DNA of 64,000 nucleotides from a bacterium 1XD21-70 (GTDB lineage: Bacteria; Bacillota; Clostridia; Lachnospirales; Lachnospiraceae). The notes under the pieces were generated by a model. It searched no databases. It saw nothing but the letters and a program-made list of their open reading frames with translations, and had not been told where the DNA came from. The position numbers and the translations under genes were made by a program. The stretch is taken from the NCBI GenBank assembly GCA_003669055.1, contig RAYB01000001.1:62001-126000 (forward strand). The letters are read 5' to 3'. Below are positions 13,523-30,208 of the stretch, piece after piece (the stretch's first letter is position 1; each line of letters starts with the position of its first letter).

Positions 13523-15064
13523 TTATTTCACCAGCAATGATTTCCCGGTCATCTCCTTCGGCTGCTCTAAGCCCATCAGTTCAATAAGCGTCGGGGCAAT
13601 ATCTGCCAGGCATCCGCCTTCCCTCAGCTTGTACTCCGAACCGGCATTTACCAAAATAAACGGCACCGGATTCGTCGTATGTGCAGTAAACGGCTCCCCG
13701 GTCTCATAGTCGATCAGCTGCTCGGCATTCCCATGGTCTGCACAGATGAACATCACTCCTCCCGTCTCGCGGATGGCTTCCACCGTCCTGCCTACACAAT
13801 GGTCTACCGCCTCAATCGCCTGGATCGCAGCCGCCTCTACCCCGGTATGCCCCACCATATCCGGATTGGCAAAGTTAATAATCACCACATCATACTCACC
13901 GGAACGGATCACCTCCACCAGTTTATCGCACACCGCCGGTGCACTCATCTCCGGTTTCAGGTCATAAGTGGCAACTTCCTTGGGGGAAGGGATCAAAAAC
14001 CGGTCTTCCCCTTCATTTGGTTCCTCAATCCCTCCATTGAAGAAAAATGTCACATGGGCATATTTCTCCGTCTCGGCGATCCTCGCCTGCTTCTTGCCAT
14101 GGGCGGCTAAGAACTCACCAAAGGTATTGGTAATGCTCTCCTTCTCGAAAGCTACCAGCTTATTGCCGATGGTCTCATCATAGTCGGTAAAGCAGACATA
14201 TGTGGTTTTCACACGTTCTCCCCGGTCAAACCCGCTAAACACGTCATCACAGAAAACATGCGTAAGTTCCCGGGCACGGTCCGGGCGGAAATTGTAGAAA
14301 ATAACCGAGTCATTCTCCTGGATTGCCGCCACCGGGACACCGTTTTCTGTAATCACGGTCGGCATCATGAATTCATCCGTCTTCCCCTCATCATAGGAAG
14401 CCTGAATCGCACCGGTAGCGCTTTCGTTCTTTGGCCCCTCGCTCTTTGTCAGGGCATCATAAGCAATTTTCACGCGGTCCCAGTTCTTATCCCGGTCCAT
14501 GGCATAGTAACGCCCCGCCACGGTGGCCACCTTGCCGACTCCTAGTTCCTTCATCTTTCCTTCCAGTTCCGCTACATAATCACGCCCTGAAGCCGGCGGG
14601 GTATCCCGCCCATCCAAAAAGCAATGTACATATACTTTCTTTAGGCCATTCCTCTTCGCCAGTTCCAGCAAGCCATAGATGTGAGTATTATGGCTGTGTA
14701 CCCCGCCATCTGACACCAGGCCATACATATGCAGTGCGGAATCATGCTTTTTACAATTCTCTACTGCTGCCATAAATGCCTTATTCTCAAAGAAATCCCC
14801 GTCCTGGATCGACTTGGTAATGCGGGTCAGTTCCTGGTACACGATCCTGCCGGCTCCCATATTCAGATGCCCCACCTCGGAGTTGCCCATCTGCCCGTCG
14901 GGAAGCCCTACGGCCAGCCCGCTGGCCTGCCCTTTCACAAACGGGCACTGGCTCATCAGCTGATCCATCACTGGCGTCTTTCCCTCACATACCGCATTCG
15001 CCTCGCACTTATCGTTGAGGCCGTATCCATCAAGAATCATCAATACCACTGGTTTCTTGCTCAT
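13523..15064 (-). CDS. gpmI: 2,3-bisphosphoglycerate-independent phosphoglycerate mutase
   Basis: 513-aa glycolytic enzyme that interconverts 3- and 2-phosphoglycerate using two Mn2+ ions. It begins MSKKPVVLMILDGYGLND, with the metal-binding Asp in 'LDGYG', then the phospho-acceptor Ser in 'GNSEVGHLNMGAGR', 'FLDGRDTPP', 'GRYYAMDRD', 'FRPDRARE' and 'CADHGNAE'. All active-site motifs are present and length is typical. The start at 15064 has AAAGGAG; the frame continues upstream without one. It has its own promoter, separate from the GTPase gene that ends 90 bases upstream. Confidence 0.97.
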   Translation of the reverse strand: MSKKPVVLMILDGYGLNDKCEANAVCEGKTPVMDQLMSQCPFVKGQASGLAVGLPDGQMGNSEVGHLNMGAGRIVYQELTRITKSIQDGDFFENKAFMAAVENCKKHDSALHMYGLVSDGGVHSHNTHIYGLLELAKRNGLKKVYVHCFLDGRDTPPASGRDYVAELEGKMKELGVGKVATVAGRYYAMDRDKNWDRVKIAYDALTKSEGPKNESATGAIQASYDEGKTDEFMMPTVITENGVPVAAIQENDSVIFYNFRPDRARELTHVFCDDVFSGFDRGERVKTTYVCFTDYDETIGNKLVAFEKESITNTFGEFLAAHGKKQARIAETEKYAHVTFFFNGGIEEPNEGEDRFLIPSPKEVATYDLKPEMSAPAVCDKLVEVIRSGEYDVVIINFANPDMVGHTGVEAAAIQAIEAVDHCVGRTVEAIRETGGVMFICADHGNAEQLIDYETGEPFTAHTTNPVPFILVNAGSEYKLREGGCLADIAPTLIELMGLEQPKEMTGKSLLVK

Positions 15065-15122
15065 GTGAAATCTCCTTTTATTTAACGACCGGTTTGCCGG
15101 TCCTTTCCCGTACACGGTTTTC

Positions 15123-15157
15123 GTGTCCATTGTACTTTATTTTGGACACTTTTTCAA
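15123..15157 (-). promoter_or_regulatory. gpmI promoter with an inverted repeat around the -10
   Basis: On the minus strand TTGAAA (15157-15152), 17 bases, TACAAT (15134-15129). The arms GTGTCC (15123-15128) and GGACAC (15144-15149) flank the -10 region, which could be an operator. The -35 overlaps the 3' end of the GTPase gene. Confidence 0.65.
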
Positions 15158-17901
15158 GATTTCGCAGAAAAGTTTCTCTCCAAACGCAGCATTTCCAGCT
15201 GCTCTGCCAACTCCTTACCGGCATTTTGAAAAAAAGGAACCTTCCCTCCACGGGGCAGCTTTTCCTGTTCCTCACGGATCAGCTGCTTTGTCCGCTCCAC
15301 ATCCTCTTTCAAATCCCTGGCAGACATCAGCATGCAGCCTGCCCCGCGGATGATCAGCTGTTCTAAGCCGTCCGAGGTGGCTACTTTCACCCGTGCATTT
15401 TTCCCCATCCGGTATGCAAATTTCTCGATATATTGGTCGGCTGTTTCCGCCTCCTTCGTATAGACCACATGTATATTATGGTAATCTGCCGCATGCCCCA
15501 CATTCCCGGCCACCTTATAGGCATCAAACACCACAATCAGGATACATTGGCAAAACGCCTGGTAATTGCACAAAATATCCATCAGCTGATGCCGCGCCCC
15601 ATCAATCGTCGTGCTGGCCAGTTCCCGCAGTTCCTCCCAGGCATAGATAATATTATAGCCGTCAACCAACAGATATTCTTCTCCTGGTTCCTGCACTTTC
15701 CCTTCCTTGCCCTTGCCCGCCCCCCGCCCTTGAAGCTGTTGCGGCTCTTCCGGCTGCATGCGGCTGGCATCCTCTTTCCCCTTGTCTTTTCCGTATATTA
15801 CCTGGCGGGATCCGCCCGCAATATCCTTCCTCCGTTTCGGCTCCCCGTAGGTACGGGCAAAAATTTCCTCCAGTTCCTTGTCTTCTGCCCCGAAACCGCT
15901 CCCTCCCTTTCCGCCTCCGCCGGAGCCTTTCACACCCCTTTCTTCTTTTTGCCTGCCCTGCCTGTCCTCTTCCTCTGCTGCCAAGGCCAGCCCTTCCAGA
16001 TGCATATAATCCTTCACCTGGTTCCAGGGCACCACAAACCCTGCACCGTGGGAGCAAAATACGGAACCCGTCGGGTTATCTAAGTCTGCTTCCGGGTCAT
16101 ATCCGGCCTTGGCCACAACCTCCTCCTCATTATGGCAGGGTTCATAGCCTTTCAGGTTACATGCCAGGCGCCCCTGCCCACGGGTATAACGGACGACCTC
16201 CTGCTGGTAATCCCTCATCTCCGATACCGGCACGCTTCCTGTAAGCACCGCCATGTCCCCTTCCGGCTGCGGCGGCTCAAATGTCCCTTTCATCCGTTCC
16301 AAATCAGACATGGCCCGCCCGACATTAGCCACCGGTACCTCCAGGCGGAATGCATAGTATGGTTCCAGAAGACGGCAGCCTGCCTCCCTAAGCCCCTGCC
16401 TCACCGCCCGGTAGGTGGCCTGCCTAAAATCCCCTCCTTCTGTATGTTTGGCATGGGCACGCCCGCAAAGCAAGGTGATCTTTACATCCGTAAGTTCCGC
16501 GCCGGTCAATACCCCCCGGTGAAGCTTTTCTTCCAGGTGGGTCATGACCAGGCGCTGCCAGTTCCGGTCCAGCACATCCTCGCTGCAGCTGCTGGCAAGC
16601 TGTACCCCACTGCCTAATTCTGCCGGCTCCAGCAGAAGATGCACCTCTGCATAGTGGCGGAGCGGCTCAAAATGCCCCACACCCTCTACTGCCCTTAAAA
16701 CCGTTTCCTTATAAACAATGTTCCCGCTCCCGAATTCCACCTCCACCCCGAAGCGTTCCCGGATCTGGTTTTTTATAATATCGATCTGCACTTCCCCCAT
16801 CACCTGGGCATGGATCTCCTGCAACGCTTCATTCCAGGCAATGTGCAGCTGGGGCTCCTCTTCCTCCAGCTGCCTTAAGCAGCCAAGCATTTTCACAATG
16901 TCACAGCCGTCCGGCAGCTGGATCCGGTAATTCAGCACCGGCTCTAACACCGGCAGCCCGGATTCTTTCTCTCCTCCAATCCCCTGTCCTGGGTAAGTGG
17001 ACATCGGCCCCGTCACCGCACATACCATACCAGGAAATGCCTCCTTTACCGCCTCGAACCTGGCTCCGGAGTATACCCGGATCTGGTTCACCTTCTCCGG
17101 CTCTTTTCCGGCCAGGGATTCTTTTACCTTTAAAGACCCGCCGGTTATCTTCATATGGGTCAGGCGGTTCCCCTGCTCGTCCCGGGATACCTTAAAAACC
17201 TTTGCCCCGAACTCCCCGGGCATTTCTTGTTCCTCCATCCAGTCCTTTAGGCCGGCCAGGAAATTCTCCACCCCATCCCCTTTCAGTGCCGAACCGAAAT
17301 AACAGGGAAATACCTTCCTTTCCCTGACCAGACGCCGGATTTCCCGCCTTTTTAGGATTCCCTGTTCCAGGTAAGCCTCCAAAAGCCCCTCCTCGCACAT
17401 GGCAAGGTTCTCCCACAATTCCTCGGACGCGCTCCCGAAATCCAGGCAGTTTTCATCCAGGCTATGCTGCAATTCTGACAATATCCCCTCCCGGTCCGTA
17501 CCTTCCTGATCCATCTTATTGACAAACACAAAGCTGGGGATCCGATATCTCTTTAACAGGCGCCACAAGGTTTTTGTATGCCCCTGTACCCCGTCTGCCC
17601 CGCTGACCACCAAAACCGCATAGTCCAGCACCTGTAATGCCCTCTCCATCTCCGCCGAGAAGTCCACATGCCCCGGGGTATCCAAGAGGGTCACCGAGAA
17701 ATCCCCCAGCATAAACACCGCCTGCTTGGAAAAAATGGTAATCCCTCTCGAACGTTCCATCTCATAGGTATCAAGGTATGTGTTCCCAAAATCGACACGC
17801 CCCGGTTCACGGATCTTTCCTGTCAGGTATAGGATCCGTTCCGACAGGGTCGTTTTCCCGGCATCCACATGTGCCAATATCCCGATTACTGTTCTTTTCA
17901 T
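15154..17901 (-). CDS. TetM/EF-G-like translational GTPase fused to a YacP/Rae1-like NYN domain
   Basis: 915 aa. Residues 1-640 are a TetM/TetO/EF-G-type GTPase: G1 'AHVDAGKTTL' (10-19), G2 'RGITI' (52-56), G3 'DTPGH' (74-78), G4 'NKMD' (128-131), G5 'SALKG', then the EF-G-like domains II-V. Residues ~640-740 are a Gly/Lys/Glu-rich linker with 'EEIFARTYG'. Residues ~741-875 are a NYN/PIN-like nuclease domain with 'LLVDGYNIIYAW', 'VFDAYK', 'TKEAETADQYIEK' and 'VATSDGLEQL', the conserved acidic set of YacP. In Bacillus, YacP/Rae1 is a ribosome A-site mRNA endonuclease. The start at 17901 gives the conserved MKRTVIGILAHVDAGKT; an ATG at 17943 is possible. It overlaps the 3' end of the giant surface gene by 95 bases. 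Tetracycline resistance should not be assumed. Confidence 0.92.
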   Translation of the reverse strand: MKRTVIGILAHVDAGKTTLSERILYLTGKIREPGRVDFGNTYLDTYEMERSRGITIFSKQAVFMLGDFSVTLLDTPGHVDFSAEMERALQVLDYAVLVVSGADGVQGHTKTLWRLLKRYRIPSFVFVNKMDQEGTDREGILSELQHSLDENCLDFGSASEELWENLAMCEEGLLEAYLEQGILKRREIRRLVRERKVFPCYFGSALKGDGVENFLAGLKDWMEEQEMPGEFGAKVFKVSRDEQGNRLTHMKITGGSLKVKESLAGKEPEKVNQIRVYSGARFEAVKEAFPGMVCAVTGPMSTYPGQGIGGEKESGLPVLEPVLNYRIQLPDGCDIVKMLGCLRQLEEEEPQLHIAWNEALQEIHAQVMGEVQIDIIKNQIRERFGVEVEFGSGNIVYKETVLRAVEGVGHFEPLRHYAEVHLLLEPAELGSGVQLASSCSEDVLDRNWQRLVMTHLEEKLHRGVLTGAELTDVKITLLCGRAHAKHTEGGDFRQATYRAVRQGLREAGCRLLEPYYAFRLEVPVANVGRAMSDLERMKGTFEPPQPEGDMAVLTGSVPVSEMRDYQQEVVRYTRGQGRLACNLKGYEPCHNEEEVVAKAGYDPEADLDNPTGSVFCSHGAGFVVPWNQVKDYMHLEGLALAAEEEDRQGRQKEERGVKGSGGGGKGGSGFGAEDKELEEIFARTYGEPKRRKDIAGGSRQVIYGKDKGKEDASRMQPEEPQQLQGRGAGKGKEGKVQEPGEEYLLVDGYNIIYAWEELRELASTTIDGARHQLMDILCNYQAFCQCILIVVFDAYKVAGNVGHAADYHNIHVVYTKEAETADQYIEKFAYRMGKNARVKVATSDGLEQLIIRGAGCMLMSARDLKEDVERTKQLIREEQEKLPRGGKVPFFQNAGKELAEQLEMLRLERNFSAKS

Positions 17902-20900
17902 CCTGCTTTTCTTTCTTTGCTTTTTTTCTTGTTTGAATCCCATTTATTATAGCGAATCTTCTCTGTTTTGTCATCCGAATTGCAAAAAATGCAAAAGCAG
18001 CCCCCAAAAAAGACAGGAAAAATAAGCATGCATACAGCCGTCCCCGTGTCCGGTCCCCGGCCAATGCCAGGTTAAGTACCCTTCCTCTCAGCTGATCCGA
18101 TAAGTTCCCAGCGCCCTTTGGCACACCCGAATCGTAAACCGCCGTAATGCGCCCTGGTTTTTTAGGCGCTTCCTGCTTTGGCGGCAGGGGATGGGGGGAA
18201 TCCCCCTTTGTCCCGCCGGGATTGGCCGGCGTTTCTTTATCCTCGTCCTTCCTATTTTCTAGTACCAGCGTCAGCTGCCGGGCTTCCTTTGGCACCTGAA
18301 ATTCCAGTTCTGGTGCCTTTTGGTACCCTTCTGGCGCCCATTGTTCCTGTAGGAAATATTTCTCTCCTGCTTCCAGCTTGCCGCTGACCTCATGGCTCTC
18401 TTTTCCGGAAACCCATTGTTCCGCCACCCTTCCTTTGGCATCCCGGATCTGCAGCAAGGCACCTTCCAATGGCTCCCCCGAAGAGGCATCTGTTTTTAGA
18501 ACCGTAATCCTGGTCTTTTTGTTCCTTATCTCAATATGATCCTCCCTTCCATCCTCGCTCATACAGAATGGGACATCCTCCGTATAAGCATATCCCGGAG
18601 CCGGTTTGACCTCATGCAGCAGGTAATTTTCCCCTGCCCGCAGCTGCCCGAAAACCTTGGTTGGTTCCGTTCCTGATACAAAAACCAGTTCCTCCCCCTT
18701 CTTGAACAGATCTCCGTCCTCTATGGCTGCCACCGGTACCCGGTTCTGGTCCAGTATTTGTAAAACCGCGCCTTCAACCGGGGCTTTGCTGCCATCGCCA
18801 GACATTTTATGCACCAAAAGTTTCGTATCCCCATCCTTCATGATTACCTGTTGGAAGGCTCCGTTTTGCAGTACGGTAAACCAAACGGCATCTGCCCGGG
18901 TATATCCCTCGCAGGGCTGCTCCTCCTCCCATTGGTAAGTCTCACCTGGCTTTAATACCCCTTCCAGGACATAAGGCTCTTCTTCTGATATCCAAAAGGC
19001 CAATTCCTTACCGTTTCCGTCTTTCAGGCTCATATGGCATCCGGACAGGTTTCTTTTGCCGCTCATATCCGTCTTGGCAAGACTAACCTTCGTCTTTTTG
19101 TCTGCCGCCACCACACAGCTGATGGATTCTTCTCCATGGAAACCAAACTGCATCCGGCTGCTCTCCAGACACGTTTTGTCCGAATAAATGGTATATTCTG
19201 TCAGCAAATTGTTTTCACCTTCGTTGAGGCGCCCCGGCTCAGGGTAAACCGTTGTTTCCTGGAGTTCCTCACTGGCCAGGAATGATGCAAATTCCGCTCC
19301 CTCCCTGTCTTTTAACACAATCCGCACCTTCTCTGCCTCACGGCCAGGGATATGGCAGAACCCATCATCCCCAAAATAAAGCGCTTCTGTCCTCCTGCCC
19401 GTTATATCCGAAGAACCGTCGCTATAGTATGTCTTCTCCGTTATGGTATAAACCCGGCCGTCTTCCCACCCATTTTTTCTGGCAAGCATATAGCCATCCC
19501 TGCTCCCGGTCCAGGATTTCAGCCACGTTCCCATCTGGTCTGACAGTTCGTACCTGACCCGAACCGGATAACGTCCTCTCACGGTCACTGACCGGATCCG
19601 GATGTCATCCGGATAGGAAGTTTCCTCGTTTGTGTGGAAGGTAACCATATGGAGGCGGCTGCTGATCCCTGCTAACATCCTTCCGTCCTTTGACATGGTA
19701 AGGATCAGCGGCTCCATCTGGTTATATCCCTCCGGTGCCAGTAATTCCTTCAAAAGATAACTCCTCCCGGCAACCAAGCCTTCGATCGTGTGCCTCTTCT
19801 GCCCGGTCACCCAGGTCTCGTAAGGTGATTCTGCATCATATAAAATCCGGCCGTTTTCATCCCTTCCGGTTATCTCGTATAATGCCAGCTTTGCACCGGT
19901 TAAAAAGTGCCCCTTCTCCCCTCCCATGGCATCAAAATCTTGTTTTCCGATAGAAACTCTTGTCCTGCTGTCTGTCACGGTAATCTGTTTTTCGGCCTTC
20001 TCCCCCGGTCCATAGGGGGATTTACCCTTTCCCGTTTCAAACTCCCAGGTAAATATCCTTGTATTTACCGCATATCCGTCCGGGGGCAGCACCTCCCTCA
20101 GACTGTACTCATACGGTTCAATCCTGCCGTCTTCCGTCACATTGCCTACCGGTAAATGATCCACCCGGGCAATTCCGCCGTCATCGCTGACGGTTTTTAT
20201 CAGCACAGGGGTTCTCCTGTCCGATTTTTTGTATGCTTTTAATTCATACACTGCCCCTTCCAGCAATTTTCCGCCGGTGTCAGTCTTTTTCACCTCCAGT
20301 CTCCCTTCTGCCGGACGGTTATATGCCCGCACCACCCTGATTTCTTCCTGCTTTTGGTATTCTATCTTCACCGGTTCCATTGTGGTATAGTAATCGGGGC
20401 ATTTTTGTTCTATTAGCCAATAAACACCGTCTTCCAATCCCTGGATTTCATGAGGCTTTCTGTCTCCTGCCGCATAGCCGGGCAAAATCTTTCCGTTTAC
20501 ATAATCCGCGTCTGTGTACACGTCATCACTGCCGCTGACCCATGTTTCTTCCAAATAGGCTTGATCCGGAAGGAAACTCCCATCCTCTGCTGCATGGTAC
20601 AACTCCATACAAGCGCCGGCAAACTCGCCCGGCACGCCCTCTGCTTCTTTAGAAATATATAATTTTCCTCTCTGGTTCTCCACGCCGAACCGTTGGACAT
20701 CCCTGGTATCCGACACTTCAACCACCCGGTCTAAGGCTTTTGCATATCCTTTCGGAGGGGTTGCCTCCCTCAGCACATACCTGCTCCCGGCCGGCAAATA
20801 ATCAATCCGGCGGACTCCGTCTAAGGTTGTATAAGAACATGCATATGCATTAATCCAGGGAAGCTTCCGGTAATCAAACTGGTATTCAAATGAGTTTCCG

Positions 20901-23900
20901 CCTGACACAATAATACGGATTTCCCTTCCGTCCTCCATGCCAAACATCAAAACCGCCGATGTGGGATGGCAGGTCTTTTCTCCGCCGCTCACAGACGCAT
21001 CCAGGGAACTGGATTCTATGTATCTTGCCGTGTGATGCGTGCCCCCCTGCTCCCATTGTATTGTTGTGCCTTCCTCTGTCCCAAAATCCTGGTACATTGC
21101 CTCAAAAGCCTCAATAAAATCATAAAACTCCTCCTTGGAACTGCTGACCCAACAATCCACCACCTGATCCGGGCTGCAGAGCAGTTCTTCATCTTTACCC
21201 GTTTGATATTTGCCTGTCTTATTTTTGTCTAATTCATATAACAAAAACTTTGCACCGCCAAGAGGGATTTTCTCCCTGCCTTCCCGGACATATTTTTCAA
21301 TTTCTACCTTTGTGTGGTCATTATACAGAAAAAATGTCTGTACCTCAGGCACCGTGCCAACCTCTACCTCTTTCGGTTCACTAGTGACAAATCCCGGAGG
21401 CGTTGCAATCTCCTCCAAAAGATAGGTTCCCGCCGGGATTCCCTCCACATAGATAGGAACCGTCCCGGTAACCCATTCTGCCTTCACCTTCTGCAGATTT
21501 CCTGCCCGGCTGTCCGTCGGCTCATATTCGAGCGGCACATCTTCTGTTTTCTCCAGATAATATCCGCCCGGCGATTCCGGGCTATACACCTTTTTCGCCT
21601 TAAACAAAGCAACCTTGGCTCCCGGAACCAGGCCTCTGCCATAGCTTCCGCCCTTTTCTGTCAGCTTTCCCCGATCCCACGACGTACCATCCTCCCTTTG
21701 TTCCAGAATACGGAACTCATGGCTTTCTGTACCGTCGATCTTGGCAATTTCTATTTTGGTTGTCTTATCTACCATAGACACATAATGCATGTCCGTGCTT
21801 TCCCTGATGATAATTCCCACCGGCATTCCTTTTAAATATCCGTCAGGGCTCTCTAATTCTTCCATAATATAATTTCCGGCCGGCAGGCGTTTCAGGATAT
21901 CCGGCTGCCCGCCGCTTTCCTCAAAATTAAAAGGATCGTTTGGCGTCCGGTCAGAACTTATCCAGCTATTCTCCAATATATACCCTTCCCCCTGGCGGTG
22001 ATAAAGTATTTTTTGGCTATCCAATAGCTGTCCGGCGCCGTTTATGCGGTACGCATTGCCGTTATATTTTTCCAGGTTGTCAGAGTTTTGATAGCGCACA
22101 AAGTCACCGTTGCGGTCATAGATCTCTGTTCCCTTATCATACCTCCCCTTACTTTTCTGATAATATACAGGCAACCCAAAGCTGTCGTAAACAGGGTTTT
22201 GTTTTCCGGCAAAGCTTCCATTATTGTCATCAGCCAGCACTTCGCCGTTTAAATTCTGCCCTTGCCTGTTTGTAGTTAATGTCGTCTCCCTATGGCTTTC
22301 CTCACTCCCCTCTGCTTCCCAGGTTCCTGTAATAAATCCGGATTCAATATGGCGGTAAGACGGACGGTTCTTTTCCGGGATCTCCCTGCCGGAATGATTG
22401 GTCACTGACAGCACCCTTTCCTCCCCGTAGCCGTTCCGGTTTTCGCCGACCGTAGCCGGCCGGGAAGTTGTGACCTTATCGCGGGCAACCGTATTGCCGT
22501 ATTCATCCTTGTGAATTTGTACTGTCCAGGCCATCACCCTGCCGCCGGTATCCCCCGGCACCGGGACATAAGCCATTCCTGTATTCGGATCTATCCGGCA
22601 ATCCCGGTTCCCGTCCCGGTCCAGATGATAGATCCGTGTTTTGCTGTCCACCATTAGCCGTTTGTCCGGGGCGGAATATGCAAGTTTTGTGAAATCCCCT
22701 CCCACAAACTCTAAAAATGGCCGTGCCGCCTGAAACGCAAATAAAGAATGCTCCGTGTCCGAACGTTCAAAATTTGCTTTTTCTGACTCTGCCTGCCCCA
22801 CGGGCACCTTATTATGGTTTCGGTCATACCCCATAACCAGAGTGCGCCCGTCAATCTTTTCCTTTACCGTTACTTCGAGGTTTCCCAGGTCATAGTACAA
22901 AATATCCTGTTCTTTTCCCCCCTTCTTTTGTTTCACATACATCCGGGTTACATTGTTGGCCAAATTCCGGATAACCATAAGCCCTTTGTACGCATGATCC
23001 TGTGTGTCACCGGAGGGTTCAAGCACCACTGACTCAAACAGAGCCATCCTGGCTCCTGCCACATAAGGATTTTCATCGCCTGCTGTCCCTAACGTCCGTG
23101 TCACATATCCATATCCGGCAAATACTTCACCATCAAAAGCAATTTCAACTTGTTCTCCTGCTTTTTTTCTTGCTGCAAGGTATTCCAGCGTTCCTTTTCT
23201 CCAGGCATACCCCAAATACTGCCCGTTTTTGTATGCATAAATATAATCCGGATTATTTCCGATATCCACCAGCCTGCCATCCACCCTTCCGCTTACCTTG
23301 TAGGTGACAGTCTTATCTTTGGTCGTGTTTGCCGTGCGGAAGCTTGCCTCTTTTTTCTTTTCTACGGTCAGTTTTATGGGTGGATTTTCTACATAAACCC
23401 GTGCTGCCGCCTTCACGCTTTGCGTCTGGGTTACTGCCAAAGTATCTTTGGAGGAGCCCTCCTCGTAAACCGCAGCTGCCACCCGCCTGTCCCTGTCCCC
23501 TTCTTTATAGTAGGTCACTTTATCAGAGTAAATCTCAAGCGCAACAGGCCGGCTCCTCACATAGCCGGAAGGCGGCTTCTCCTCGCAGATTACATATGCC
23601 CCTGCCTCCAATGGCTGCGAGATCTCCAGATATCCTGCTGTCTGCTGCTGCCGAACCAGGGCATGTCCGTAATTCTCTTCTCTCATCAGCCCATCCAAAA
23701 TTGTAGAATAGGATGCCCATACCCCTGTCTGCCGGTTCAGGCCGTCCTCCTGCATAATCCTTCCGCTTTCTTCACACATTGGTGTCCCCGCCGAAACCAC
23801 CCCGGTATAAAGATTGCCAGGCCCACGATCCTTCCCGAACATCCGGTCCAACAAGGACATTTTCCTGGCCATCGGACGGATATCCGCTGCTCCCATGGAC

Positions 23901-26900
23901 TCTAAAAACCCCAAAGTCCCGCAAACAGCAGTGTCCTTTTCATAGAAACATACCCTCCCGCTCCCATCCTCCGAATCCTCACGTTTTGCGGCATAAACAG
24001 CAAACAACGCACTGTCGTGCAAAATATTCTCATGTGTCTCACTATCCAGCTTTTCCAGCCTCAGCCTGACCCTATAGCCCTGGTTGTTAAAATCAGCCTT
24101 GCCACAGCCTTCCGGCTCTGTCACGCTCCATGGAACCAGCATGGAAGCATACTTCCCGCCATAGGCTGCCTGTACGCCTTGCATTGCCATACTGCCTGCC
24201 ACCCCTCCTTTTTCCGAAACCGAACTATACCGGTACCTGCCGGCAATCTCCCCATGCCCCGGCAGCCCTTCCGACAGGTAATAATCCACTCTGCTTTCCG
24301 TCCTCTCGTCCTGTTCGTTATAATAGTTTTTATATGGCCGGTATTCACTCTGTGTCAGGGCAAAATAATCCCCTGTCCCGGCTGCCGATGGCACCCCGTT
24401 GGCAATCAGCCCTATATCCATCCCATATTTATATATCTCAAAATCCCCATGATGGTTGTGTGCCAGGATCTTATGGTTCTCCTGGTTGAAACGGATCTTA
24501 TACCGGCGCTCCGTCTCCTCCTGGGACAGGGAAGGATTGTAGTTATAATAAGTACTCCATATTCCGGAGGCTCCAGGGGAGTTTGCGTTGTCATAAACTG
24601 ATGGCAGCACCACCTCTTTTGGTTCGTCTGTCCGATAATGCTTGTTCCTAAAGTCGTTCCTGTTTTTTCCGTATTCCATACCGGCATATTGCGGCTGTTG
24701 TTCCACTATCACATAGGTTCCATATGGCAAATAAGAAGAGATTCCATAATAAAGCCCGGTTCCCCCGTCTTCCTCCAAAAAATCCGCCGAAACGGTCGTC
24801 CGGTCGTTATCATTTCCGCCGTCTGCCCCATCCCAGCAAACCGCATATATCTCATCCAGGTCATAGGCAAAAAACGGTTTCAGGTAGTTTTCCGCCTTTT
24901 GGACTGCCTCCCACAAGGCCTGGTCATAGATTTCGTCCGGATAAGATACTGCTCCGGCTCCCGCCTCCTGTTCTTTTCCGTCTCCCCCTGCCGGCCGTAT
25001 CAGTTTTTTTACTTCATCCTCCAAATACCAGTCAATGGCAAACTGGCGTACCTGGTCAGATACCCTTGCATTGCCAAGTGTCTCTTCCCTCCGGTTTCCC
25101 TCATTGCCGATAGGGCGCCAGCTGGTGTAGGAAGGTGCTGCATCATCCCACTTGTCATGGTTGGCAACAGCAATTGCATCAAAGAACTTCCGGTAATTAT
25201 AGCTTTTTATCTTCTGGACTTTGCCTCCGTCCTCCGCTACTTTTTCAGTCCGCTCTAAAATTGCCGTATATCCATGATTCGCTTCCTTTTTGATTTCATC
25301 TCCCTCATAACCATAAAGAAGCCCGTTGGCTCTCACGGCATCCCGGGAATCTGCATAGAGAGGGCTTGTGCTATGCAACACCTTTGTATAGATCTTGCGC
25401 ACCAGTTCCGGAAATCTCCTGTTTTCTTCCGTCACTTCCCCTGCCTTCTGTTCCTGTCCCCGCCGGTCCTGCCACACTACGCTCCCGTCTTCTGCCCGGT
25501 AAAGCCTCTCCAGATTGGATTTTAAATATGCCCGGAAACGGAAATTCCCCATGCGCCCGTCTTCAATACGTTTTTGCACTTTGATTTTTTGTACAACCGC
25601 ACGTTCGAGAACCTGCAGCGGCGCCTTTCCGGTACCTGCATCCTCATAGATTATATCCTGTCCCGGATATGCAAGCATCACCGGCTGGATGTAGCTGCCT
25701 GAAAGATTCAAAGATGGGGCAGCCGTAACGGAAGGGCTTCCCCCTTCCCCCGCAAAGCGGTTGCCATAGCGAACCGTCATCAGGATCTCTCCCCCTTCCG
25801 GAATCTTGTCCGGAGATAGGTAAATCTTCCAGGTTCCTGCCTGCCCGTCATACCGTGCCTCTGCCCTCTCATAAAAAACGGTCTCTACTGTCTGATACCC
25901 CGACCGTTCCACATCACGCACATCCTCTTTCTGATAGATGCTGCCGTCCTGCGCCCGTAAAAACTCCCCTTCCCCATAAACCCAATAAGTTCTTATCTCC
26001 TGTGCACTCACATATGGCCATTCCGAAAGTTCTCCGTAACCGTCCATCCCCTGTATATCCGGCTTCTCATTAGGCACACGTACCCAACGGTACCTGCTGC
26101 CCCCTGCCTCATAGTCCTCCCCTGAGAGTCCGGTCAGCGGATATTTCCGGTACAAGTGTCCAAGTCCATTCTCCGGGTTATCAAGAGGGTATCTCACATA
26201 AAAGCTTTGATCCGGGGCGCTGAATACCACATCCTGCACTACCCCTTCTTTCAAAAAGGAATACCGCAAAACGGCATAATCCTCACCATTACGGCTGATT
26301 ATCTGTTCCAGAGATGCCGCATTGAAAGCAGGGCAATCCTCCCTTTCCAGAAAATCATATATCCGCTGTGCCCACAGCATACTGTCTTCCCCTAATTCGA
26401 TCAAAAAATATGGCGAATCCTTTCCTGGCAATTCCATCCCGATCTCTGCTAATGCCTCATTGCACTCTTTTAGGAAAACTTCTGGTTCCACGCTTTCTAT
26501 GCCTGTCAGTTCCGGAACAAATTGTTGGTTAAATGTCGGGATTGTACCTTTATTCCCTGTCCGGAAAACCTTGTCCGGAGACAGGAATGCCTCCTCCACA
26601 TTTTGAACCGTAACGCTGTCCCCACATGGAAGTTCTATGATATCCCCCTTTTTGGCCTCTACACTTTCGCCCTCAATAATAACCTGTGTTCCGAAAACCG
26701 CCTCCACCGGCTCGCAATAAGTCTCCATCTCCTTCCACTGCCGGTACACCTCTTTCCTTCCCGTTTTTGTCAGCCAAAAGGAAGGGTCGGAAAGCGGATC
26801 AATATTTTTTGCATAAAGATCCACGCCAAAGCTTGTTCCTCTTGCCAAAAGATGCACTTCCGTTACCATTTCCTCTTTCCCGCTATCCTCAATAAAACGC

Positions 26901-29900
26901 ACATTCCCTTCCGCCTTCTCCACCAGGACAGTGCCAACCGCCTTTTCTTCTCCTCCCGCTATCCAGCTGCTGCGGTTAGAGACATCAGCCTCAATACCAT
27001 AAACAGAAAGTTCGTATCCCTCCGACCGTGTTAGTTCCTGGACATAATACGGCCCTAAAAGCAGCGGCCTTCCAATCCAGCAGTTCCCGTTGGCAGACTG
27101 ATTGTCCGATATGGGATAATGCCACCGCCCTCTGTCATTCCCGTACGGATTGCTGCTGTATTTCTGGTCTTTTCTTGTGTACTCATTCTCCGGCCCCAAA
27201 AAACCTCCTGCAACCATCTTTCCCAGCTGATAATCATATTTTGTTCCTGGAGCCTCTGTTATTGCCATAAAGGATGCATCACCGTTTTTATCTGTTGCAG
27301 CAACTGCCACCAGGTTCCCCTTTTGAAAAACCACCCCTGTCTTCCCGTCCGGATGAACCAAATCCCCGGCAGCAAACAATCCATAGACCGCACCTTCTAA
27401 GGTTCCGTCCCCCTGTGTATCCCCGTATGGATCATATCCGGCATCCGCCCCCTTTGTTAAAAGCAGATCCCGCTTATTGATATGGATCTCCCCTTCTGTA
27501 CGGTAGTCATATAATCTGAATGTCCATCCCGCACCTCCCAAGCCGGTATAGTCCGGGTCTGCCAAAGCGATAACCGCCAGGCCGGAAGGCCTAAACCCTG
27601 CCTGGTTGCGGATAGGGTAGGAATTCTTAAAACGGTTCTCGCCTTTATCCGAACCGCTCTCCGAATTTTCGGGCAGCCATTTTTCAGCAATACGGACGAT
27701 TCCAGGAAGGATGCAAGCTTTTCTCCCATTGGATGGGCTGGCTTCATCATATTCCTCCCAATCCTCATCGTCATCCAGGATCCATATGTCATCCAGGCTG
27801 ATTTCTTCTGTGATCTCATCTGCGTTGCTGTCACTTGCAACCACAGCAGCCTTTCCTATGCCTTCCTCCCTTCCTGCTGTTTTTTCTGCCTTTTTTCCCT
27901 CCTCTTTCTTTTCTGTCCCTTCCTCTGTTTCTGCTTCTTTTGCTGTTTCTGTACTATCTTCCCTTTTTGTGCCCTCCGGCGTTTCTCTTTCCCCCGTCTT
28001 TTCTGTTTTTTCTGTTTTTTCTGTCTCCTCTGTCTCCTCCGCCTTCTCTGCCTTTTCCTCCTCTGCCTCTTCTTCCTCCCCCGTCCTGTCTTCCCGCTCC
28101 GTGTTCTCTTTTTCTGTTAATTGTTTTTCCGCATCCTCTTCACCTGCCCCCTTCTTTGGCCATAAACTCACCTTGTCCGCCATTTTCACTGTTCTGCTTA
28201 CTAACTCATCCTCTGCCAACGCATCACTGAAATCCTCTATTTCCTCCGCTTCCTGCCAAGCGTCCTTTCCGGGGACGTCTTGTGCCAGGGTATAATACTG
28301 GCTGGAATGCACAGTCACGGTTTCTATCGGAATTGTGTCTGCATGAATCCCGTCAAATACATTTTCAAACGGCTCATGGATATGTTCCTGGTTGTGAAGG
28401 ATATATCCAGGCCTGGCTGCCAGTTCCCTGGCCGAATAATCATAGGTCAGGGATACAAATTCTTCATAATGCCGGTTACGGTCTGACAAAAGTTCCTGTG
28501 ACCCGCCAGAAAGGGAATGGAAAAAACCTCCCGCCAAAACTAATTCCTCACAGATGCGGATCTGTCTTTCATATTCTTCCGCCTCATCTTCATCCTCCGG
28601 ATCCGGCTCAGGGTGCCCGCCGCAATACCCCTTGGTATAAGAATAATATTTAATATCCCGATGGGCACGGACCCCGGAAGGCTGCAGCTGGCCTGCCCCC
28701 GGGGAATCGGCTCCCACCAGCCATCCATCTTTATCTGTCACCTCCTGATCCTTTGTGCAGGGGTCGGGATCCCCGTTGTCTTTATAAGGGCTGTCCCACC
28801 CCTGCCACCGCAAAAACTGGCTTCCCCCATCATTGTCCCAATTGTCATCCTCCAACACGCTTCCTGCCAGCTGCCTGTCATCGAAAGCTTCCAGGATATC
28901 AAACCAAGCATTTTCCAATGGCTTTCCTGTTTCTGCATCCATCTTCTTAAGGTTCACCACGTAGTCCGCCTGCCAGCGTTCCGTATGTTTGTATCTCGCC
29001 ACTGAAGAATTCCCCCATTCCGGGTACCCTGACGGTTCTCCTGTCTTAGGGCTTCCCACCGAAATCCGGAACCCGTCTTCCAAATTGGCCAGCAGGTTTC
29101 CCTGTGCAAATGTCAAACTCCAACGCCCTCCTATTTTCACTGGCATATGGAATTCCCGCACGCTCTCCTTACCGATCCTTTTTCGGATAATGCCATTAGA
29201 ATTTTCTAAGTTAATCTCGGCAATCCCCTTCTCCTCTTCTACCTGCCCGCTCGGGGAGTAAAAATCGATGGCGCCCTCGCTCATTTTGTAATTCCAGTCT
29301 CCATGCATAACAATCGAAGCAGATGCAAAAAATTTCTCAGTCTCTGCATTTAAAGGATATCTGGCATGGTACATACTGTCCCCCTCTAATGCTACTGCAG
29401 GACGAAATAAGTATCCGGTATCCGAACATTCCTCACAATCGGCTGCCAGCCTGGCTGTGTTCCAAACAGCGCTAAAGAATGCTTCCATATCTTCCATCAT
29501 CTCGTCATATACCTGCGTACTCCCCAATCCCGAAGGGTTGTACCTGTTGGCAATCTGTGTTGCATGCCGGCGGTACATCTCCCAATCATGGACAAAATCC
29601 CCAGTGAATTTCGCTTCCTCGGACAGGGTACAAAAACTTTGCCCCAAATAATAATCTGATGTCCCGATCACCGGATCGGAATTGACCGTCCCCTGATATG
29701 ACCTGTAATTTGCAGCATAAGCCATGATCAGGAAATTCAACCGCTGGCAATATTCGCTTGCTGTATTGCTTTTGATAAAGGAAGGGAGATTCTGCAACGT
29801 GTAGGGTTCCCTTTTGATATACCAGACCGCACTGGTTTCCATTGTGGTATTCGGATTTTCCGCCAGTTCCCTGCCATGGGAAATGCAGTACATGTTCCGG

Positions 29901-30208
29901 TATTCATATTCTTTCCACCGGCCGCTCGGACTGACGCTGGTCTGCTGTTTATATACTACAATTCCCGGCACCGGATATGTGCGTGTCATATGCCCGATAA
30001 AATCGGTACGCACCAAATCTGTCCCGTCCTGTGCTGCCAGCCGATCCCACAATTTCACCAGTTCCTCATCATAGGTAATTTCCCCGCCCCCAAAGGATAC
30101 TGCCCCGTAAGCCTTTTTGGATGGCGGAAAATATGGCAGAACTGCCAGCAGCAGCACAACAGCTGCCAACACTCCTGCATACCTTTGCCGCATCATTCTC
30201 CCGTTCAT
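17807..30208 (-). CDS. Giant Cna-B/SpaA-repeat surface protein (4133 aa)
   Basis: Signal peptide at residues ~8-35 ('YAGVLAAVVLLLAVLPYF'), then a thioester-domain-like region (Cys108 in 'MYCISHGREL'; 'METSAVWY' where TQxAIW would be expected), then many Cna-B/SpaA-type beta-sandwich modules. At least ten carry the pattern K-x-D-x-x-x-G-x-x-L-x-G-A ... E-x-x-x-P-x-G-Y, for example 'KKTDTGGKLLEGAVYELK', 'LKTDASSGEPLEGALLQI', 'LKELLAPEGYNQ', 'LHEVKPAPGYAY'; such modules usually form internal isopeptide bonds. A Glu/Lys/Thr-rich stretch lies near residues 700-800. The C-terminus has a membrane helix ('LYACLFFLSFLGAAFAFFAIR') and a basic tail; no LPxTG motif or nearby sortase is seen. Last gene of the surface operon; its final 31 codons overlap the GTPase gene in another frame. 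Likely an adhesin or wall-spanning stalk; ligand unknown. Confidence 0.9.
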   Translation of the reverse strand: MNGRMMRQRYAGVLAAVVLLLAVLPYFPPSKKAYGAVSFGGGEITYDEELVKLWDRLAAQDGTDLVRTDFIGHMTRTYPVPGIVVYKQQTSVSPSGRWKEYEYRNMYCISHGRELAENPNTTMETSAVWYIKREPYTLQNLPSFIKSNTASEYCQRLNFLIMAYAANYRSYQGTVNSDPVIGTSDYYLGQSFCTLSEEAKFTGDFVHDWEMYRRHATQIANRYNPSGLGSTQVYDEMMEDMEAFFSAVWNTARLAADCEECSDTGYLFRPAVALEGDSMYHARYPLNAETEKFFASASIVMHGDWNYKMSEGAIDFYSPSGQVEEEKGIAEINLENSNGIIRKRIGKESVREFHMPVKIGGRWSLTFAQGNLLANLEDGFRISVGSPKTGEPSGYPEWGNSSVARYKHTERWQADYVVNLKKMDAETGKPLENAWFDILEAFDDRQLAGSVLEDDNWDNDGGSQFLRWQGWDSPYKDNGDPDPCTKDQEVTDKDGWLVGADSPGAGQLQPSGVRAHRDIKYYSYTKGYCGGHPEPDPEDEDEAEEYERQIRICEELVLAGGFFHSLSGGSQELLSDRNRHYEEFVSLTYDYSARELAARPGYILHNQEHIHEPFENVFDGIHADTIPIETVTVHSSQYYTLAQDVPGKDAWQEAEEIEDFSDALAEDELVSRTVKMADKVSLWPKKGAGEEDAEKQLTEKENTEREDRTGEEEEAEEEKAEKAEETEETEKTEKTEKTGERETPEGTKREDSTETAKEAETEEGTEKKEEGKKAEKTAGREEGIGKAAVVASDSNADEITEEISLDDIWILDDDEDWEEYDEASPSNGRKACILPGIVRIAEKWLPENSESGSDKGENRFKNSYPIRNQAGFRPSGLAVIALADPDYTGLGGAGWTFRLYDYRTEGEIHINKRDLLLTKGADAGYDPYGDTQGDGTLEGAVYGLFAAGDLVHPDGKTGVVFQKGNLVAVAATDKNGDASFMAITEAPGTKYDYQLGKMVAGGFLGPENEYTRKDQKYSSNPYGNDRGRWHYPISDNQSANGNCWIGRPLLLGPYYVQELTRSEGYELSVYGIEADVSNRSSWIAGGEEKAVGTVLVEKAEGNVRFIEDSGKEEMVTEVHLLARGTSFGVDLYAKNIDPLSDPSFWLTKTGRKEVYRQWKEMETYCEPVEAVFGTQVIIEGESVEAKKGDIIELPCGDSVTVQNVEEAFLSPDKVFRTGNKGTIPTFNQQFVPELTGIESVEPEVFLKECNEALAEIGMELPGKDSPYFLIELGEDSMLWAQRIYDFLEREDCPAFNAASLEQIISRNGEDYAVLRYSFLKEGVVQDVVFSAPDQSFYVRYPLDNPENGLGHLYRKYPLTGLSGEDYEAGGSRYRWVRVPNEKPDIQGMDGYGELSEWPYVSAQEIRTYWVYGEGEFLRAQDGSIYQKEDVRDVERSGYQTVETVFYERAEARYDGQAGTWKIYLSPDKIPEGGEILMTVRYGNRFAGEGGSPSVTAAPSLNLSGSYIQPVMLAYPGQDIIYEDAGTGKAPLQVLERAVVQKIKVQKRIEDGRMGNFRFRAYLKSNLERLYRAEDGSVVWQDRRGQEQKAGEVTEENRRFPELVRKIYTKVLHSTSPLYADSRDAVRANGLLYGYEGDEIKKEANHGYTAILERTEKVAEDGGKVQKIKSYNYRKFFDAIAVANHDKWDDAAPSYTSWRPIGNEGNRREETLGNARVSDQVRQFAIDWYLEDEVKKLIRPAGGDGKEQEAGAGAVSYPDEIYDQALWEAVQKAENYLKPFFAYDLDEIYAVCWDGADGGNDNDRTTVSADFLEEDGGTGLYYGISSYLPYGTYVIVEQQPQYAGMEYGKNRNDFRNKHYRTDEPKEVVLPSVYDNANSPGASGIWSTYYNYNPSLSQEETERRYKIRFNQENHKILAHNHHGDFEIYKYGMDIGLIANGVPSAAGTGDYFALTQSEYRPYKNYYNEQDERTESRVDYYLSEGLPGHGEIAGRYRYSSVSEKGGVAGSMAMQGVQAAYGGKYASMLVPWSVTEPEGCGKADFNNQGYRVRLRLEKLDSETHENILHDSALFAVYAAKREDSEDGSGRVCFYEKDTAVCGTLGFLESMGAADIRPMARKMSLLDRMFGKDRGPGNLYTGVVSAGTPMCEESGRIMQEDGLNRQTGVWASYSTILDGLMREENYGHALVRQQQTAGYLEISQPLEAGAYVICEEKPPSGYVRSRPVALEIYSDKVTYYKEGDRDRRVAAAVYEEGSSKDTLAVTQTQSVKAAARVYVENPPIKLTVEKKKEASFRTANTTKDKTVTYKVSGRVDGRLVDIGNNPDYIYAYKNGQYLGYAWRKGTLEYLAARKKAGEQVEIAFDGEVFAGYGYVTRTLGTAGDENPYVAGARMALFESVVLEPSGDTQDHAYKGLMVIRNLANNVTRMYVKQKKGGKEQDILYYDLGNLEVTVKEKIDGRTLVMGYDRNHNKVPVGQAESEKANFERSDTEHSLFAFQAARPFLEFVGGDFTKLAYSAPDKRLMVDSKTRIYHLDRDGNRDCRIDPNTGMAYVPVPGDTGGRVMAWTVQIHKDEYGNTVARDKVTTSRPATVGENRNGYGEERVLSVTNHSGREIPEKNRPSYRHIESGFITGTWEAEGSEESHRETTLTTNRQGQNLNGEVLADDNNGSFAGKQNPVYDSFGLPVYYQKSKGRYDKGTEIYDRNGDFVRYQNSDNLEKYNGNAYRINGAGQLLDSQKILYHRQGEGYILENSWISSDRTPNDPFNFEESGGQPDILKRLPAGNYIMEELESPDGYLKGMPVGIIIRESTDMHYVSMVDKTTKIEIAKIDGTESHEFRILEQREDGTSWDRGKLTEKGGSYGRGLVPGAKVALFKAKKVYSPESPGGYYLEKTEDVPLEYEPTDSRAGNLQKVKAEWVTGTVPIYVEGIPAGTYLLEEIATPPGFVTSEPKEVEVGTVPEVQTFFLYNDHTKVEIEKYVREGREKIPLGGAKFLLYELDKNKTGKYQTGKDEELLCSPDQVVDCWVSSSKEEFYDFIEAFEAMYQDFGTEEGTTIQWEQGGTHHTARYIESSSLDASVSGGEKTCHPTSAVLMFGMEDGREIRIIVSGGNSFEYQFDYRKLPWINAYACSYTTLDGVRRIDYLPAGSRYVLREATPPKGYAKALDRVVEVSDTRDVQRFGVENQRGKLYISKEAEGVPGEFAGACMELYHAAEDGSFLPDQAYLEETWVSGSDDVYTDADYVNGKILPGYAAGDRKPHEIQGLEDGVYWLIEQKCPDYYTTMEPVKIEYQKQEEIRVVRAYNRPAEGRLEVKKTDTGGKLLEGAVYELKAYKKSDRRTPVLIKTVSDDGGIARVDHLPVGNVTEDGRIEPYEYSLREVLPPDGYAVNTRIFTWEFETGKGKSPYGPGEKAEKQITVTDSRTRVSIGKQDFDAMGGEKGHFLTGAKLALYEITGRDENGRILYDAESPYETWVTGQKRHTIEGLVAGRSYLLKELLAPEGYNQMEPLILTMSKDGRMLAGISSRLHMVTFHTNEETSYPDDIRIRSVTVRGRYPVRVRYELSDQMGTWLKSWTGSRDGYMLARKNGWEDGRVYTITEKTYYSDGSSDITGRRTEALYFGDDGFCHIPGREAEKVRIVLKDREGAEFASFLASEELQETTVYPEPGRLNEGENNLLTEYTIYSDKTCLESSRMQFGFHGEESISCVVAADKKTKVSLAKTDMSGKRNLSGCHMSLKDGNGKELAFWISEEEPYVLEGVLKPGETYQWEEEQPCEGYTRADAVWFTVLQNGAFQQVIMKDGDTKLLVHKMSGDGSKAPVEGAVLQILDQNRVPVAAIEDGDLFKKGEELVFVSGTEPTKVFGQLRAGENYLLHEVKPAPGYAYTEDVPFCMSEDGREDHIEIRNKKTRITVLKTDASSGEPLEGALLQIRDAKGRVAEQWVSGKESHEVSGKLEAGEKYFLQEQWAPEGYQKAPELEFQVPKEARQLTLVLENRKDEDKETPANPGGTKGDSPHPLPPKQEAPKKPGRITAVYDSGVPKGAGNLSDQLRGRVLNLALAGDRTRGRLYACLFFLSFLGAAFAFFAIRMTKQRRFAIINGIQTRKKAKKEKQDEKNSNRDIGTCGCRENDPVGTDPIPDRKDP
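27995..28040 (-). repeat. Short in-frame tandem repeat (Glu-Lys-Thr units)
   Basis: Nine-base units reading GAAAAAACA and variants on the minus strand encode the repeated E-K-T/E-E-T in the charged linker of the giant surface protein. Units of nine keep the frame, so copy changes would lengthen or shorten the linker. Confidence 0.6.

Follow-up and report, generated by a model that had tools for sequence, protein, structure and literature searches.

A widespread fusion of a Tet/EF-G-like GTPase with a Rae1-type nuclease in Lachnospiraceae and beyond

What might a protein do that carries, at one end, a GTPase resembling elongation factor G (EF-G) and the tetracycline-protection proteins and, at the other, a nuclease of the Rae1/YacP kind? 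The question is raised by a locus in the window, by which we mean the whole 64,000-nucleotide stretch of DNA analyzed here. A single intact open reading frame (ORF) of 915 codons on its minus strand encodes both halves. In a Pfam profile search, GTP_EFTU, EF-G D2, III, IV, and C, and NYN_YacP each scored over their own cutoffs, NYN_YacP with 164.3 bits against 24.6. The features are as follows, in window coordinates.

15154..17901, minus strand: complete gene of the fusion, 915 aa and a stop codon (ORF reading and Pfam; unbroken in all 80 kept relatives)
17946..17974, minus strand: possible promoter ATGACA-17-TATAAT within the end of the upstream ORF (11 of 12 sigma-70-type matches)
17236..17889, minus strand: G domain, residues 5-222 (Pfam GTP_EFTU, 4.6e-51)
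17005..17211, minus strand: EF-G domain 2, residues 231-299 (Pfam EF-G_D2, 8.3e-08)
16729..16944, minus strand: EF-G domain III, residues 320-391 (Pfam EFG_III, 1.3e-09)
16381..16722, minus strand: EF-G domain IV, residues 394-507 (Pfam EFG_IV, 1.3e-18)
16423..16464, minus strand: domain IV tip loop G-x-x-H-x-K-H-T-x-G-G-D-F-R, residues 480-493 (alignment of 81 fused rows)
16126..16374, minus strand: EF-G domain V, residues 510-592 (Pfam EFG_C, 5.3e-20)
15997..16125, minus strand: extension after domain V, residues 593-635 (common to fused and unfused relatives)
15682..15996, minus strand: linker, residues 636-740, 105 aa (mostly disordered, with one weak helix, in the model)
15190..15672, minus strand: NYN_YacP (Rae1-type) nuclease, residues 744-904 (Pfam, 3.2e-48)

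The original prediction of a GTPase and a nuclease fused in one protein agrees with these domains, and all of the motifs that it had called complete are present (AHVDAGKTT, RGITI, DTPGH, NKMD, and GSAL in the GTPase; DGYN, VFDAYK, ETAD, and TSDG in the nuclease). Among 81 fused rows, 37 of 44 tabulated positions are unvaried, leaving aside a row that a contig end cuts short and that has gaps at two of them. These rows do not vary at K16, T55, H78, N128, K129, and D131 (one contig-cut row is gapped at K16), and D747, N750, D793, D822, E826, and D844 are found in 81 of 81. We take the acidic residues D747, D793, D822, E826, and D844 to match the Rae1/YacP active site, with presumed catalytic roles. 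Three fused relatives (L045, L046, and L065) have DGCN or DSYN for DGYN and keep the Asp and the Asn. The solved structures closest to the nuclease in sequence are those of Rae1 (5mq9, 2.1e-25; 5mq8, 2.7e-25), so that its naming as a Rae1/YacP-like NYN nuclease holds.

An AlphaFold2 model of the fusion, built from 40 of 81 aligned fusions, has a mean pLDDT of 76.8 and a pTM of 0.52; the pLDDT drops under 50 in residues 50-58, 655-676, 683-738, 883-895, and 911-915. Two of these stretches, 655-676 and 683-738, lie in the linker, where the one helix spans 673-685; the flexible connector of about 100 residues that had been predicted is therefore present as 105 mostly disordered residues. Across the 54 of 77 relatives in which both ends were matched by pattern, the tether measures 70 to 142 residues. 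The nuclease modeled by itself, without an alignment, reached a mean pLDDT of 38.4, too low to be informative. An otherwise variable linker contains a conserved stretch at about residues 673-686 (ELExIFxRTYG-like; window 15844-15885, minus strand), which is perhaps a docking motif.

The fusion is real and widespread. A scan of the collection found 163 relatives, of which the best 80 were kept, and in all 80 a single ORF encodes both halves (with L078 truncated at the end of its contig); chance joining is thereby excluded, and a frameshift or assembly artifact was rejected on the same count. Trimmed lengths of the fused relatives, the query included, run from 859 to 1004 aa. Selecting the top matches to a fused query makes this a biased sample. 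Even draws of at most 400 genomes per rank were also searched, with frames listed for part of them. Within the family draw (299 genomes; the nearest relatives bear names that identify the family as Lachnospiraceae), NYN_YacP occurs in 264 genomes, once in 258 and twice in 6, and the GTPase occurs at 1e-95 or better in 257. Both are present in 257 genomes, YacP only in 7, the GTPase only in 0, and neither in 35. There, 147 of 150 listed GTPase places lie in frames of at least 800 aa, and in another 16 genomes YacP lies in a frame of at least that length. The fusion is found in such a frame in at least 163 of the 257 GTPase-bearing genomes, the remaining ones having no frame listed or one that is standalone or cut. 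These results answer the proposal, made with the original prediction, to search for the domain architecture: the fusion is present in every kept relative and very common in the family draw.

At class rank (391 genomes), YacP was found in 249 genomes and the GTPase in 166, with both in 157, YacP only in 92, the GTPase only in 9, and neither in 133. The 147 genomes listed with a frame comprise 126 of at least 800 aa, 16 of 640 to 720 aa (one of which, G630, resembles a split fusion), and 5 others. At phylum rank (398 genomes), the GTPase is present in 30, with 23 in frames of at least 800 aa, 15 of those 23 outside the class; four of these 15 were probed (G681, G739, G772, and G1034) and have YacP in a frame of 877 to 927 aa. 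The Fisher p value for co-occurrence of GTPase and YacP, 2e-31, counts fusions and ignores relatedness, and we give it no weight. Plasmid cargo was rejected as an account of the fusion, since only 2 of 905 matching plasmid records cover at least 80% of the query.

The same domain combination had already been described in 2015. In its available passages, Atkinson 2015 (PMC4342817) reports Tet proteins with an acquired YacP-like NYN RNase domain from ten clostridiales species, an architecture the same as that found here, and suggests that a novel, RNase-based resistance mechanism is possible. It was the sole report of the fusion returned by our literature search, the coverage of which did not extend to Leroy 2017, Condon 2018, and two later articles central to Rae1. 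Those passages hold one observation and the resistance idea; they contain nothing on the tip residues, the probable origin in one event, or the vacant position of yacP, all treated below.

Is the fusion, then, a resistance protein? In the reading put forward in the passages of PMC4342817, it would protect from tetracycline or some other A-site drug, and RNase activity would be part of the resistance. The best sequence matches of the GTPase, and its closest solved structures, are TetO and TetM, which share its five-domain, EF-G-like plan, and 28 of 30 listed plasmid records, most of them unfused, carry a resistance name. The fusion GTPase nevertheless scores far below the curated cutoffs, with 440.8 bits where tet_protect requires 775 and 319.5 bits where the M/W-class profile requires 1100. 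A separate protein of the same genome served as a positive control, with 839.1 and 1243.7 bits, respectively; this 639-aa protein (L002, G000:C37:80019-81860) is of the Tet(M/W) type, stands above the curated cutoff, and has a resistance-type tip. In a GTPase tree of 51 rows (a sample of 22 fused, 20 unfused, 7 resistance type, and 2 EF-G), the split between the resistance proteins and the 42 rows of fused or unfused relatives has support of 100/99.

The tip of domain IV differs as well. Pro509 of TetM, which according to the text seen of PMC8161019 sits in the drug site and contacts C1054, aligns with Lys485 of the fusion. All 22 fused and all 20 clostridial unfused rows have Lys at this position, whereas the 7 resistance-type rows all have Pro there and Tyr or Phe at position 483. 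His483, Lys485, His486, Thr487, Gly489, Gly490, Asp491, Phe492, and Arg493 are identical in all 22 fused and all 20 unfused rows of the tree, and in the larger alignment all 81 fused rows keep H483, K485, H486, T487, and G489-R493. The sub-cutoff scores, the non-Pro tip, and the separate Tet(M/W)-type gene led us to reject a genuine resistance protein, and the view that this is not plain tetracycline resistance is upheld. We consider the wider drug-protection reading quite unlikely too, for the same reasons and because near universality in the family draw is unlike a scattered resistance gene. The table in the available part of PMC7725328, where six predicted protection genes were tried in E. 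coli, gives no resistance value for three, and such relatives therefore need not confer resistance. The tip analysis argues against naming relatives as tetracycline-resistance proteins, which is relevant to resistome surveys; two of the 30 listed plasmid records are fusions, and one of these is named as a resistance protein.

EF-G offers the other comparison. The fusion has its domain set, and the best 50 fold matches listed are EF-G/EF-2 family structures, with TM-scores of 0.32 to 0.53 by query length; its score for the EF-G equivalog TIGR00484, however, is 293.9 bits, below the cutoff of 659.4. In the alignment, His483 falls on the His of the GSYH motif in the EF-G that the same genome encodes (position 585 of 705); the EF-G rows (three rows, two of which are loci of one gene) likewise have His here, at the equivalent of E. 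coli EF-G His583, the role of which is treated in the text seen of PMC8505512, whereas the remaining tip residues differ from EF-G. The fusion GTPase is a member of a sister clade to the tetracycline-protection proteins, with a different and invariant tip. A Tet/EF-G type, as originally predicted, stands, and the label "TetM-type" was too specific.

The extension after domain V further separates the GTPase from TetM and TetO. In the fused rows it has Cys616 and Gly619 in 81 of 81, His618 in 77 of 81, and His634 in 80 of 81, and the Cys616 position is gapped in 7 of 7 resistance-type rows. Cys589, at the end of domain V, is invariant (81/81). Cys589, Cys616, His618, and His634 cluster after domain V (window 15997-16137, minus strand), and a metal site here would be a guess. 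A plasmid of Ligilactobacillus salivarius (L173, 3529-5920) carries an unfused homologue that divergently adjoins rpsN and a putative metal homeostasis gene. It is about 50% identical across residues 1-634 and, with positions set by eye, has Ser and Val at His483 and Lys485 and keeps H-T-x-G-G-D-F-R. An rpsN neighbor of this type was absent from all other loci examined, many of which have short flanks.

The nuclease half is more readily compared with a known enzyme. It has the NYN_YacP domain and the acidic residues of Rae1/YacP of Bacillus subtilis, which attacks mRNA in the ribosomal A site (PMC12320835 and PMC6613710, in the parts seen) and is co-transcribed with yacO/rlmB (PMC6613710, likewise). 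The B. subtilis protein stands alone, whereas here the nuclease is the C-terminal part of a GTPase encoded elsewhere in the genome. Standalone yacP can adjoin rlmB, as at locus L114, where the order is a gene with an RNase III domain, rlmB, yacP, and sigH; the first of these is presumably mrnC. Among 15 fused genomes checked, yacP adjoins the best rlmB match in none; in 9 of these genomes sigH follows downstream within the flank, in one of them (L155) directly after rlmB. As a control of the search, yacP was found next to rlmB in the standalone genome G024 and not in the standalone genomes G059 and G536. The window's genome has one NYN_YacP match, which is the fusion, and one of the 15 fused genomes (G431) has a second match elsewhere. 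Because YacP is single copy in 258 of 264 genomes and absent beside rlmB in 15 of 15, the fusion, so common in the family draw, seems to be the Rae1 of these genomes.

The same evidence bears on rRNA or tRNA maturation, in which the GTPase would bind ribosomes or ribosome precursors, with RNA trimming left to the NYN domain. The available text of PMC4342817 cites an earlier suggestion of a role for this domain in the maturation of rRNA and tRNA, and the gene that can adjoin standalone yacP, rlmB, encodes an rRNA methylase. The fusion, however, is not beside rlmB in any of the 15 genomes checked, and the B. subtilis enzyme is described as an A-site mRNA endonuclease; we regard maturation as very doubtful.

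Unfused GTPase relatives of about 655 aa also exist, and their relation to YacP bears on whether the two halves work together. Fifty standalone-YacP genomes were picked from the listed rows, and 21 match the GTPase at 1e-60: 18 have an unfused GTPase with the KHT tip, G620 has the fusion, and G484 and G576 have only resistance-type proteins. G620 (locus L120) holds both a fusion, in an 883-aa frame, and a standalone YacP, in a 174-aa frame. Four of 40 YacP-lacking genomes probed also match, two with the KHT tip (G326 and G331) and two of the resistance type (G322 and G324). In the window's family, the unfused GTPase was found in 9 of 11 standalone-YacP genomes probed and in 0 of 20 YacP-lacking genomes probed (of 35). 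In the class draw, the 15 listed genomes with a frame of unfused size divide into 8 with YacP and 7 without, and outside the class YacP is present in 4 of 7 genomes with a GTPase match, counted regardless of tip, and at a similar rate, 6 of 13, in genomes without one. A general link between unfused GTPase and YacP was not borne out, since 7 of 15 in the class and 3 of 7 outside it lack YacP. A GTPase found in genomes that lack YacP must have a use apart from the nuclease.

It could follow that the chain performs two separate jobs, with the GTPase acting independently (e.g., in translocation or on idle ribosomes), the nuclease being an ordinary Rae1, and fusion merely equalizing their amounts or holding both near the ribosome. 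The occurrence of the unfused GTPase with and without YacP and the long, mostly disordered linker would suit such an arrangement. It fits less well with the persistence of one fused clade in many families, without variation at either active site, and with the 0 of 257 family-draw genomes that have the GTPase without YacP, although most of these are fusions. We judge two separate jobs to be unlikely.

The trees of both halves are consistent with one fusion event. In the GTPase tree the fused rows form one clade (98/99), which the nearest unfused row (L135 of G202) joins at 95/90. The nuclease tree has 50 rows (a sample of 28 fused and 22 standalone; L045, L046, and L065 were dropped by the motif pattern), and its fused rows also form one clade, at 94/89, although this tree is short and the support is just under the usual mark. 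The fused nuclease clade adjoins three standalone rows of the same family (G059, G202, and G024), and these three genomes also carry the unfused GTPase. The fusion is probably of single ancient origin, and the simplest reading of the trees is one event between partners that were already co-resident in a genome.

The fusion combines two known kinds of protein, for which we predict a joint function. The explanation that we prefer, and to which we give about an even chance of being right, is that Rae1 has been built into a translational GTPase that would deliver the nuclease to ribosomes with a vacant A site. The GTPase in its GTP form would dock at the EF-G site of stalled ribosomes whose A site is vacant, and the H-x-K-H-T tip would probe the decoding center. 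Hydrolysis of GTP would free the GTPase from the ribosome, and the nuclease, on its long tether, would then enter the vacated A site and cut the mRNA there, leaving a product on which tmRNA rescue and mRNA decay could act. Tet proteins and EF-G use the same A-site region (PMC8161019, in the text seen). The tip and the nuclease would have to act in sequence, because both would need the same site, and we estimate that the tether is long enough for a hand-over on one ribosome.

Delivery of the nuclease by the GTPase is favored by the completeness and conservation of both modules, the dichotomy of the tip, the single fused clades, the joint occurrence of the two genes in the family draw, and the lack of yacP at its ordinary place in the fused genomes checked. 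Against it are the deviating tip of the L. salivarius homologue, the unfused GTPases without YacP, the hand-over between the halves that the shared need for the A site forces one to assume, and the lack of a conserved neighbor pointing to ribosome rescue. Flanks of 3.5 kb or more on both sides were available for 53 of the 80 loci; among these 53, every neighboring family is limited to 7 loci or fewer, and an operon partner for the fusion was rejected on this count.

We would extend this explanation only tentatively. In Lachnospiraceae and many other Clostridia, Rae1 may possibly be a GTP-gated quality-control machine, in which a distinct kind of translational GTPase, with an EF-G-like tip His, inspects the decoding center and one mRNA cut is licensed only after GTP hydrolysis; where unfused GTPases and free Rae1 occur together, the former might recruit the latter in trans. 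The choice of ribosomes by Rae1-type nucleases is a question that this natural GTPase fusion makes testable in one polypeptide.

The start of the gene bears on the reading frame given above, as an alternative in-frame ATG at 17943 would give a longer reading. The promoter-like sequence at 17974-17946 would place the transcript start below 17943, favoring the originally annotated start at 17901; this preference is only suggestive, and the scan of the region gave 3 promoter-like sites against a shuffle mean of 2.3. Upstream lies an ORF of 4133 aa with SpaA prealbumin-fold repeats (Pfam; window 17807-30208, minus strand), the end of which overlaps the start of the fusion gene by 95 bases. The downstream gene (window 13523-15130, minus strand) encodes a cofactor-independent phosphoglycerate mutase (Pfam), and its pairing with the fusion gene is seen in 3 genomes, that of the window included.
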